The translations under genes were made by a program, and so were the position numbers. This document shows, in pieces, positions 16,767-18,842 of a stretch of 64,000 bases of DNA. Source of the stretch: Pseudomonas koreensis (GTDB lineage Bacteria; Pseudomonadota; Gammaproteobacteria; Pseudomonadales; Pseudomonadaceae); the NCBI RefSeq assembly GCF_024169245.1, contig NZ_JALJWP010000001.1, positions 4,527,501-4,591,500 of the forward strand. The letters are read 5' to 3'. A model generated the notes under the pieces. The model searched no databases and was not told where the DNA came from. It saw only the letters and a program-made list of their open reading frames with translations. The stretch's first letter is position 1, and every line of letters starts with the position of its first letter.

Positions 16767-17252
16767 ATGAATTCCTTACGCATTTGCGCGATCACTGGGC
16801 TGTGTATCGCCAGCCTGTCCACCCTCGCCAACGCCGCCAAGCTCGAAGATGTCGCGCCGTATCCCAAAGCCGAAGCCGGGTTCACCCGCCAGGTCATTCA
16901 TCTGCCCAAGCAAGAGCACGAAGAGAATTTCCAGGTTGAAATCCTCGCCGGCAAAACGCTGGAAGTGGATTGCAACCGCCAGCGTCTGGGTGGTGTGCTC
17001 GATGAAAAGAATCTGCAAGGCTGGGGCTATCCGTTCTATCGCCTGGAAAAGGTCATCGGCCCGATGAGCACGATGATGGCCTGCCCGCCTGGCAGCAAGA
17101 AAAAGCGCGCTTTCGTTCCGGTCGTCGGTGATGGCTTCATGTTGCGCTACAACAGCAAGCTGCCAGTCGTGGTGTACGCGCCTTCGGACGTCGAAGTGCG
17201 CTATCGCATCTGGTCGGCGTCGGACAAAGTCGGCACCGCCCTGCAGGAATGA
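16767..17252 (+). CDS. eco: Ecotin, periplasmic serine protease inhibitor
   Basis: Ecotin is a dimeric periplasmic inhibitor of trypsin-fold proteases such as trypsin, elastase and factor Xa. The 161-residue precursor has a signal peptide cleaved after TLANA. The mature protein starts [20 protein letters not shown], the standard ecotin opening. It contains [22 protein letters not shown], the reactive loop STMMAC with the P1 methionine and the disulfide cysteine, and the [15 protein letters not shown] block. All hallmarks of active ecotin are present. Translation starts at ATG 16767 after GGAGG. The stop overlaps the NIPSNAP gene (ATGA), so the pair is co-translated. Confidence 0.96.
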
Positions 17253-17572
17253 CCGGAGCCCAGCCCTTGATTACTTGCCACGTCAGATATGTGATCGATC
17301 CTTACCAGTTACCCGCTTTCGAAGGCTATGCCAAAGCGTGGCTCGACATCGTTGAGCGCTTGGGCGGCACCCATCACGGCTACTTCCTCCCCTCGGAGGG
17401 CGCGAGCAACATTGCTTATTGCCTGTTCAGTTTCCCGTCGCTGGCCGATTACGAGAGCTATCGACATATTGCAATGACCGACCCGGAAAGCACCGCACTG
17501 GTGGCCGACCTGGTAGAGAAAAAATTCATTGTCAGTTACGAGCGCACGTTTCTGCGCCCGTTGCTGCCCTGA
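17249..17572 (+). CDS. NIPSNAP family protein
   Basis: This 107-residue protein has a ferredoxin-like dimeric alpha/beta-barrel pattern. It opens with [20 protein letters not shown], has a central [14 protein letters not shown] loop and ends with [13 protein letters not shown], as NIPSNAP proteins do. Their function is unclear in bacteria. The gene starts inside the ecotin stop codon (4-bp overlap), so it depends on ecotin translation, but a functional link is not obvious. It converges on the threonine dehydratase gene with 6 bp between. Confidence 0.85.
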
Positions 17573-17578
17573 TCGCCA

Positions 17579-18592
17579 TCACGCCGGCACGCCGCAAGCA
17601 GCGGCGCGCTCGACGACATGACGCAGACTGTCAAAGTTGATGTTGGCCCCTGAATCAATGGCAACAAAGGTCTGGCCACTGACGCCATTGCGCGCTACGT
17701 ACTGCTTGATCCCCGCAACAGCCAGCGCCCCTGACGGTTCAGTAATCGAACGCGTATCGTCATAAATGTTCTTGATCGCGGCGCAGAGTTCGTCATTGCT
17801 GACCGTGATCACTTCATCTACGCAGAAGCGGCAAACCTCGAAGCCATATGCACCGATCTGCGCCACCGCCACGCCATCGGCGAAGGTGCCGACGCTCGGT
17901 AGAACCACCCGCTCGTCCGCGCTCATAGCCGCTTGCAGGCACGCTGAATGTTCCGATTCGACGCCGATGATCCGCACTTCCGGGCGCAAGTATTTGACGT
18001 AGGCCGCGATACCGGCGATCAAACCTCCGCCACCGACCGGGATAAAGATCGCGTCCAGCGTGCCTTGATGCTGGCGCAGGATTTCCATGGCCACGGTGCC
18101 TTGGCCGGCGATCACGTCAGGATCATCGAAGGGTGAAACGAACGTGCATCCGGTCTGCTCGGCCAATTGAAGCGCATGTGCCAAAGCAAAGGGGAAACTA
18201 TCACCGTGCAGCAATGCGTCGGCACCGCGACTGCGCACGCCGAGCACCTTGAGCTCAGGGGTGGTGGAAGGCATGACGATCGTCGCGGCAATGCCCAATT
18301 CCCGTGCCGCCAGCGCTACACCCTGCGCGTGATTACCCGCCGATGCCGTAATCACCCCCCGTGCTCTCTGCTCATCGCTCAGTTGCACAAGTTTGTTGTA
18401 AGCACCACGGATCTTGAAAGAGAACGTTGGTTGCAGATCTTCGCGCTTGAGCAGGATCCGGTTGCCCAATACTTCCGACAACGCTGGCGCAAGCTGCAAC
18501 GGCGTGCGCACCGCAATGTCGTACACCGGCGCGGCCAGGATCTTTTTCACGTAGTGCTCGAGCAGGGCTTGTTGGTCGGGGCTGTGCGGCAT
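17579..18592 (-). CDS. ilvA: Threonine dehydratase (threonine ammonia-lyase), catalytic domain only
   Basis: This PLP enzyme deaminates threonine to 2-oxobutyrate, the first step toward isoleucine, and probably serine to pyruvate. The 337-residue sequence has the PLP lysine in FSFKIRGAYNKL, the substrate loop SAGNHAQG, the phosphate-binding GGGGLIAG, and the late EPSGALAVAG and SGANINFD motifs. The protein ends shortly after NFDSLRHVVERA, where biosynthetic IlvA proteins continue into two ACT-like regulatory domains. It should therefore lack isoleucine feedback inhibition by that route. No remains of the ACT region are visible downstream. Translation starts at ATG 18592 after AGGAG. The leader holds a putative Ile/Thr attenuator, so control appears to be at transcription. 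Another full-length ilvA may exist elsewhere. Confidence 0.88.
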   Translation of the reverse strand: MPHSPDQQALLEHYVKKILAAPVYDIAVRTPLQLAPALSEVLGNRILLKREDLQPTFSFKIRGAYNKLVQLSDEQRARGVITASAGNHAQGVALAARELGIAATIVMPSTTPELKVLGVRSRGADALLHGDSFPFALAHALQLAEQTGCTFVSPFDDPDVIAGQGTVAMEILRQHQGTLDAIFIPVGGGGLIAGIAAYVKYLRPEVRIIGVESEHSACLQAAMSADERVVLPSVGTFADGVAVAQIGAYGFEVCRFCVDEVITVSNDELCAAIKNIYDDTRSITEPSGALAVAGIKQYVARNGVSGQTFVAIDSGANINFDSLRHVVERAAACGVPA

Positions 18593-18630
18593 GATCGTCT
18601 CCTGACATTTATCAGAACCCCGGAGACAGA

Positions 18631-18703
18631 AAGTAAAAACCCGCCTCTAGGGCGGGTTGGGTGCTGCAGTCGTGAGCTAGCCCGCCAAATAAGGAATGGC
18701 GGT
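18631..18703 (-). promoter_or_regulatory. Putative transcription attenuator upstream of threonine dehydratase
   Basis: Reading the minus strand, ACCGCCA (18703-18697) can pair with TGGCGGG (18687-18681). The same TGGCGGG can instead pair with CCCGCC at 18656-18651, the 5' arm of an intrinsic terminator. That terminator is an 8-bp stem (AACCCGCC/GGCGGGTT) with a CTAGA loop, followed by TTTTTACTTT, and it lies about 45 bases before the start codon. The first arm overlaps Thr and Ile codons of a leader ORF. Mutually exclusive hairpins of this kind are the hallmark of ribosome-dependent attenuation. Confidence 0.65.
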
Positions 18704-18742
18704 AATAATGCTTGGCTGGCAGCGCGATACGGTGAAAGTCAT
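18677..18742 (-). CDS. Candidate leader peptide of the threonine dehydratase attenuator
   Basis: A 21-codon ORF runs from ATG 18742 to TAG 18677. It contains the run Ile-Ile-Thr-Ala-Ile (codons at 18709-18695), matching the end product and substrate of threonine dehydratase. Three further Thr/Val codons lie near the start. The stop codon falls just past the TGGCGGG arm, where a terminating ribosome would mask it. The ribosome site is weak, and an upstream mini-ORF ends in an ATGA overlap with this start, so coupling is possible. The peptide itself has no expected function. Confidence 0.55.
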   Translation of the reverse strand: MTFTVSRCQPSIITAIPYLAG

Positions 18743-18842
18743 GGGCTGGAAATTAGCCTGCCGGCAGATGGCAAGTCAATGGTCATTTGCGCGCCGCACC
18801 GGTAGGCTGGCGATTCTGCTCATCACACCAAGGAAGGAAAGC

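Follow-up and report, generated by a model that had tools for sequence, protein, structure and literature searches.

The small RNA P9 of Pseudomonas (Rfam family RF00624) very probably arises by termination in the leader of ilvA, which would act as a ribosome-dependent attenuator sensing charged isoleucine tRNA through an open reading frame (ORF) predicted to be leaderless. P9 was reportedly first described by Livny et al. in 2006. The window, i.e., the whole 64,000-nucleotide stretch of Pseudomonas koreensis DNA that was analyzed, carries the same RNA as a full-length RF00624 match on the minus strand (18636..18712; 86.3 bits against a gathering score of 43). The family, left unnamed in the original prediction of an attenuator at this site, is listed in Rfam as a small RNA gene, and the matched stretch starts 30 nt past the leader ATG. 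The claim that no description existed for Pseudomonas has therefore to be divided: the RNA had been catalogued already as P9, but no account of P9 or of ilvA attenuation in Pseudomonas was found in open-access full texts, most subscription papers being outside the scope of that search. Neither is described in the accessible portions of PMC7298713, PMC5542712, PMC2965389, PMC7308464, PMC2375449, and PMC8297930. If the proposed reading is true, it provides a function for a catalogued small RNA that a search with the Rfam model located in 224 of the 298 sampled Pseudomonas genomes (217 above the cut-off) and in none of the 14 control genomes; isoleucine supply would then be sensed in Pseudomonas by attenuation, a mode of control undescribed for this genus in the open-access literature searched, and P9 would be a well-conserved example of attenuation from a leaderless ORF.

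All parts of the locus lie on the minus strand. The candidate promoter, read directly and supported by promoter-pair scoring, consists of a -35-like hexamer, TTGACT (18774..18779), and, after a 16-nt spacer, a -10-like hexamer, GCTAAT (18752..18757), ending 9 nt before the leader ATG. The leader ORF (18677..18742) has 21 codons, from the ATG at 18742 to the TAG at 18679-18677, and reads MTFTVSRCQPSIITAIPYLAG followed by the stop; it was delimited by direct reading and by comparison with other leaders, which also defined the regulatory codons ATT ATT ACC GCC ATT (18695..18709). Arm 1, CCGCCA (18697..18702), overlaps these codons. Arm 2, TGGCGGG (18681..18687), adjoins the leader stop codon and can pair either with arm 1 or with the 5' arm of an intrinsic terminator (18658-18638) detected by a terminator scan and followed by TTTACTTTCT. 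This 5' arm, AACCCGCC (18651..18658), is arm 3, the alternative pairing partner of arm 2, and the terminator 3' arm, GGCGGGTT (18638..18645), placed by the scan and by folding, is arm 4. The helix 1:2 has six pairs, with A18703 opposite a G, and the core of the antiterminator helix 2:3 joins GGCGGG (18686-18681) to CCCGCC (18656-18651). Re-reading of the strand found the ORF, the Ile and Thr codons, the three arms, and the terminator where they had originally been placed; arm 1, taken there as the 7-nt ACCGCCA, had to be trimmed to the six paired bases (18702-18697). Taken as a single sequence, the window terminator is no better than chance (one found against 1.3 expected in shuffles), and a strict promoter scan found none before the leader, where the -10 hexamer is weak. 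The gene downstream (17579..18592) is an ilvA paralogue coding for a threonine dehydratase of 337 aa with the catalytic domain only; in domain and family profile searches a PALP domain alone was found, and the nearest relative is the catalytic half of biosynthetic IlvA.

In the proposed mechanism, RNA polymerase would start at or beside the leader ATG. With ample isoleucine the ribosome would reach the TAG and cover arm 2, the 3:4 terminator would form, and P9, running from 18742 to about 18632 of the minus strand, would be released as the terminated ilvA leader. With isoleucine scarce the ribosome would stall at ATT ATT (ACC GCC) ATT over arm 1; arm 2, thereby freed, would hold arm 3, and the polymerase would continue into ilvA. 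Without translation 1:2 would form, making termination the default. What the sequences show directly are the parts, how far they are conserved, the covariation in 1:2 and 3:4, and the neighboring genes; the transcription start, translation, stalling, and response to isoleucine in this scheme are what we infer.

In the Thr, Ilv, and Trp attenuators of enteric bacteria, regulatory codons lie over arm 1 of a three-arm switch and a terminator precedes a gene of the same pathway. P9 has this layout in common with them: its short ORF contains clustered codons for an amino acid of the pathway and stands before a gene of that pathway. It differs in that the ORF is predicted to be leaderless and has no Shine-Dalgarno (SD) sequence, and in that the usual target is ilvA alone, while related leaders precede isoleucyl-tRNA synthetase (ileS), citramalate-synthase-like, and other genes. 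The Rfam search of the window gave no match to the Thr leader at E up to 5, and Trp_leader reached 19.6 bits against a cut-off of 41. A precedent for the predicted start is trpL (rnTrpL) of S. meliloti, whose transcript begins with the ATG of the leader ORF and, when terminated in the leader, yields an RNA that has been described as a small RNA (PMC7298713); P9 is predicted to share the ATG-start transcript and is likewise catalogued as a small RNA. The S. meliloti leader, in contrast, concerns tryptophan and an alphaproteobacterium, and the likeness drawn here is one of description.

The comparison comprised 161 P9 loci, i.e., the window, 46 and 60 loci found with the Rfam model, and 54 from a DNA pattern scan; 106 of them are the better-scoring among the Rfam matches listed and the pattern behind the 54 fixes the core, so that the sample leans toward strong members. 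The 159 loci that were parsed yielded 143 distinct sequences with 125 distinct leader ORFs, and these sequences are mutually related, their counts not being counts of independent events. The other two, L107 and L146, were left out, P9 being cut inside the terminator; in both of these Pseudomonas genomes it leaves the consensus at the same base of the terminator 3' arm, in an insertion-like manner.

All 143 distinct sequences have an in-frame ATG 18-48 nt upstream of the Ile core, with a single out-of-frame ATG in the whole set; without the 36 sequences known through the pattern alone, the tally is 107 in-frame ATGs in 107 sequences, again with one out of frame. The distance from ATG to core is 10, 11, 12, or 13 codons in 15, 119, 8, and 1 distinct sequences, respectively, so the length changes by whole codons, and the entire ORF has 20-23 codons. 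The core begins with ATT ATT ACC throughout (143/143) and continues with GCC (119) or GTC (24) and then ATT (140) or ATC (3); among the 107 obtained independently of the search pattern these variants number nine (GTC) and three (ATC). A P9-ilvA leader outside the set, L273, has ACC TCC instead of ACC GCC or ACC GTC. The leader stop, TAG or TGA, adjoins arm 2. Three sequences carry a one-base change that alters the frame behind the core; their ORF ends one codon further on, at a new TGA. Isoleucine codons constitute 559 of the 3001 leader codons, against 5% in the 35 long ORFs of the window, with three to six in every leader, and ATT makes up 87% of them, against 31% in the same window ORFs.

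The open leader frame by itself would be little evidence for coding, because frame 2 is also mostly open (stops in 6 of the 143 sequences, none in 137) and the stops of frame 1 mostly reflect an ATGA overlap (40/143 without that overlap); frame 0 has no stops. In the N-terminal codons third-position variation is not in excess (entropies 1.12, 1.39, and 1.32), hence no selection on the N-terminal peptide is visible. Third positions of the core are conserved as well, a pattern that selection at the RNA level would also produce.

The RNA structure was evaluated in an alignment of 23 sequences from four gene contexts: 8 upstream of ilvA, 5 of a SnoaL-like gene, 4 of an AAA_33 kinase, and 6 of a small kinase matching 'DNA topology modulation protein' models, which we take to be FlaR-like. 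Helices 1:2 and 3:4 are paired in 96.5% of the cells and contain 21 both-sided changes, against a shuffle mean of 5.6 (0/500 as high) and at most four in slid versions, a count that kinship among the aligned sequences can inflate. The six pairs of the 2:3 core can form in all 23 sequences, one variable pair being UG, CG, or UA, and two pairs past the core form in 7 and 17 of them; across these sequences 2:3 has no covariation of its own beyond that of shuffles (one both-sided cell, 94/500 shuffles). P9 thus has mutually exclusive pairings 1:2, 2:3, and 3:4, the last being an intrinsic terminator; of these helices, 1:2 and 3:4 have the compensatory changes proposed as a check of the original prediction. 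For the window, the predicted fold of the full leader comprises 1:2 and the terminator (-35 kcal/mol, z -2.6), and arms 2 and 3 without arm 4 give the antiterminator (-13.1, z -1.5). The same was predicted for the whole set: the fold without arm 4 has 2:3 in its minimum-energy structure and the full leader forms the terminator, each in 143/143. When arms 2-4 are all available, the fold preferred in all 143 sequences is still the terminator, the window included, so antitermination would have to be kinetic.

Upstream of the leader, 142 distinct sequences had enough DNA for promoter scoring. Within a search range of 3-14 nt upstream of the ATG, the top-scoring promoter-like pair has its end at a distance of 6-10 nt in all 142; of 710 random anchors, 1.3% attain the median of these scores. 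None of the 143 sequences has an SD-like motif ahead of the leader ATG, and the ATG is flanked by C on its 5' side in 98% and by A on its 3' side in 97%. The position of the promoter pair and the lack of an SD lead to the prediction that transcription starts at the leader ATG, or no more than about 3 nt from it, and that the leader ORF is leaderless. The weak ribosome site remarked on in the original prediction is thus a general feature, and a leaderless start would account for it. The proposed coupling of the leader to an upstream mini-ORF (18786-18739) was abandoned: the mini-ORF spans the -35 and -10 hexamers, i.e., the predicted promoter, and with a start at the ATG it would lie outside the transcript and could hardly be a translated, coupled unit. 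An ATGA overlap is present in 139/143 sequences, and an upstream in-frame ATG, GTG, or TTG in 81/143.

Leaders related to P9 are also present before other genes. Among 25 loci with weak Rfam P9 matches, 21 have related leaders (L068 and L071 among them) and four, L052, L053, L054, and L072, have none; these leaders precede a SnoaL-like gene, an AAA_33 kinase, or the small kinase, which matches its models weakly. A covariance model was then run over 293 genomes of the order, 40 of the genus, and 321 of the class. The order search listed 60 matches (45 examined, 3 P9-ilvA, 12 left out) and the class search 12 (11 examined and the window); matches of the genus search outside P9-ilvA were left unclassified, save L272. 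Of the 56 examined matches outside P9-ilvA, 31 contain a leader frame in which Ile codons lie side by side, a feature partly built into the matches by the ATTATT of the model, while the downstream gene is not. The gene behind these leaders is a FlaR-like kinase in 14 cases, a SnoaL-like gene in 5, threonine dehydratase in 4, isoleucyl-tRNA synthetase in 3, and a citramalate-synthase-like gene in 2, the remaining 3 being chance frames with GTG starts. All nine matches located before isoleucine genes (4 ilvA, 2 citramalate-synthase-like, and 3 ileS) thus have such a leader, and the 25 matches without one comprise two before the kinase (one upstream of a counted leader), 23 before other genes, and none before isoleucine genes.

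The identity of these genes was assessed with NCBIfam. The ileS products of L277 and L289 score above the cut-off and that of L242, a 500-aa piece, below it (579.8 against 621.4); for L236 and L294 (R)-citramalate synthase is the best match, below its cut-off; L237, L239, and L240 encode threonine ammonia-lyases at or above the cut-off, with no regulatory domain in Pfam, and the fourth threonine dehydratase, L245, was identified by tblastn only. The ileS and citramalate-synthase-like cases all come from one genus, and the threonine dehydratases from three families. When 14 relatives were tested against the Rfam P9 cut-off, five passed (L148, L326, L062, L064, and L055) and nine did not: L048, L058, L336, and the relatives before ileS, citramalate-synthase-like, and other ilvA genes (L236, L237, L240, L242, L277, and L294). 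Across gene contexts and families the leader peptides differ, the Ile codons recur, and the logic is the same. The occurrence of one architecture before ilvA, citramalate-synthase-like genes, and ileS in other genera provides independent support for isoleucine sensing.

As far as sequences can tell, isoleucine is the common signal of P9 and its relatives and threonine is incidental, so that of the Ile/Thr sensing in the original prediction the former part is retained and the latter dropped; its logic of three arms and a leader peptide finds support in the frame kept by the leader, in the covarying helices 1:2 and 3:4, and in the separate occurrences before other isoleucine genes. It is rather likely, with less confidence than for P9 itself, that P9 is the founder of a family of leaderless isoleucine-reading attenuators in Pseudomonadales and beyond, which would unite ilvA, citramalate synthase, isoleucyl-tRNA synthetase, and several small-enzyme operons (SnoaL-like, AAA_33, and FlaR-like kinase) in one isoleucine-starvation regulon with no regulatory protein. 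The relatives point to enzymes with a possible part in isoleucine metabolism or in coping with a blocked isoleucyl-tRNA synthetase.

Several observations on individual relatives are also worth recording. In L062, L063, and L229, three SnoaL-like cases from one genus, the leader is followed by the SnoaL-like gene and then by an AAA_33 kinase, with overlapping frames in L062. Small P-loop kinases stand behind leaders such as RIIIIP-stop in L220-L225, L228, L230-L235, L238, and L328, spread over many families of the order and also present in one genome from outside the order; the kinase leader L224 has no adjacent Ile codons. A similar leader without adjacent Ile codons is found in L336, where the downstream translation looks GNAT-like by eye.

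Other explanations of P9 have to be considered against this background. That P9 is mainly a trans-acting small RNA, encoded before ilvA by chance, appears improbable. Its Rfam type is 'Gene', and it would have a promoter and terminator of its own; moreover, in S. meliloti the trp leader released by termination has a function in trans (PMC7298713), which makes the two roles compatible, and P9 may have a trans-acting role besides attenuation. Chance, however, would explain neither the presence of ilvA behind P9 in 136 of the 143 distinct sequences nor the survival of the leader frame through whole-codon length changes, and it also leaves aside the preserved ability of arm 2 to pair with the terminator arm and the relatives before other isoleucine genes.

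To an equally small degree we credit the idea that the leader senses a ribosome-stalling drug or a specific nascent peptide, as leaders of resistance genes do, rather than isoleucine tRNA. The nearly invariant IIT(A/V)I core of the ilvA set would suit it, as would the relatives before kinase, SnoaL-like, and GNAT-like genes resembling accessory enzymes; yet it is isoleucine codons and not one peptide that recur from context to context, and the targets include ilvA, citramalate-synthase-like genes, and ileS. Marginally less credible again is a riboswitch-like leader binding a ligand, or an unregulated promoter-proximal terminator, with an incidental ORF. The conservation of the core nucleotides at third positions and the low weight of frame openness by itself are compatible with it, but not so the in-frame ATG at 10-13 codons in 143/143 sequences or the other families, in which different leader peptides accompany the same logic and the same kinds of genes.

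Apart from the 136 sequences in which ilvA is shown behind P9, ilvA was not found behind 6/143, five of which have less than 260 nt of downstream sequence and one a masked ilvA; in one more a SnoaL-like gene comes first and ilvA lies behind it. A single P9 leader, a SnoaL-like gene, and then ilvA follow one another in L148 (P. otitidis) and L109 (Pseudomonas sp. RIT-PI-AD), with overlapping frames in L148. The 43 closed P9-linked ilvA frames of more than 150 aa fall into 22 of 335-361 aa, 16 of 507-518 aa, and five outside these ranges (163, 223, 223, 417, and 537 aa), of which the two of 223 aa and those of 417 and 537 aa contain masked stretches. Pfam found two Thr_dehydrat_C stretches in each of the four long proteins tested and none in the two short ones; the long form is present in named species such as P. 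viridiflava, P. congelans, P. cerasi, and P. graminis. The 'stand-alone, ACT-less' enzyme of the original prediction is therefore correct for the window and its lineage and not in general, since P9-linked ilvA has regulatory domains in species around P. syringae. The notion of P9 as a marker of the ACT-less enzyme only was rejected on the 16 long frames out of 43 and the four with Thr_dehydrat_C.

Copies of ilvA were counted at a cut-off of E <= 1e-80. Among 30 P9 genomes, 26 have two copies, three have one, and one has none. The 28 genomes without an ilvA-linked P9 that were checked (20 of the 74 without any P9 match and 8 with weak matches) all have a single ilvA, with an open frame of at least 507 codons. 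On the ilvA tree, in which bootstrap support is not settled, the P9 label has to change five times, and in two cases (L004/L315 and L007/L317) the P9-linked copy clusters with the second ilvA from its own genome. A single origin of P9-ilvA was rejected on these grounds, and the same five changes and within-genome groupings suggest that ilvA coding sequences have probably been re-duplicated or converted beneath the same leader. P9 is accordingly best regarded, on the tree and copy numbers, as the mark of a second ilvA locus, not of one protein lineage.

Between the terminator and ilvA, a predicted hairpin (18597..18627), read directly and with a weak folding control, pairs GTCTCC (18627-18622) with GGAGAC (18602-18597) and would cover the ilvA SD; by pairing CTCC with the SD GGAG it is possibly a second, translational check. 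Predicted folds were dismissed as evidence for the covered SD: at least three of its four bases are paired upstream in 123/123 of them, and so they are in 1032 of 1230 shuffled spacers. What favors the hairpin is solely the conservation of CTCC/GGAG (119/123) and the exchange of TA and AT in the adjoining outer pair (TA 39, AT 23, GC 1, mismatch 56). As for the immediate surroundings, a convergent plus-strand ORF (17249-17572) abuts the 3' end of ilvA, and another plus-strand ORF above the predicted leader promoter is oriented away from the leader and ilvA.
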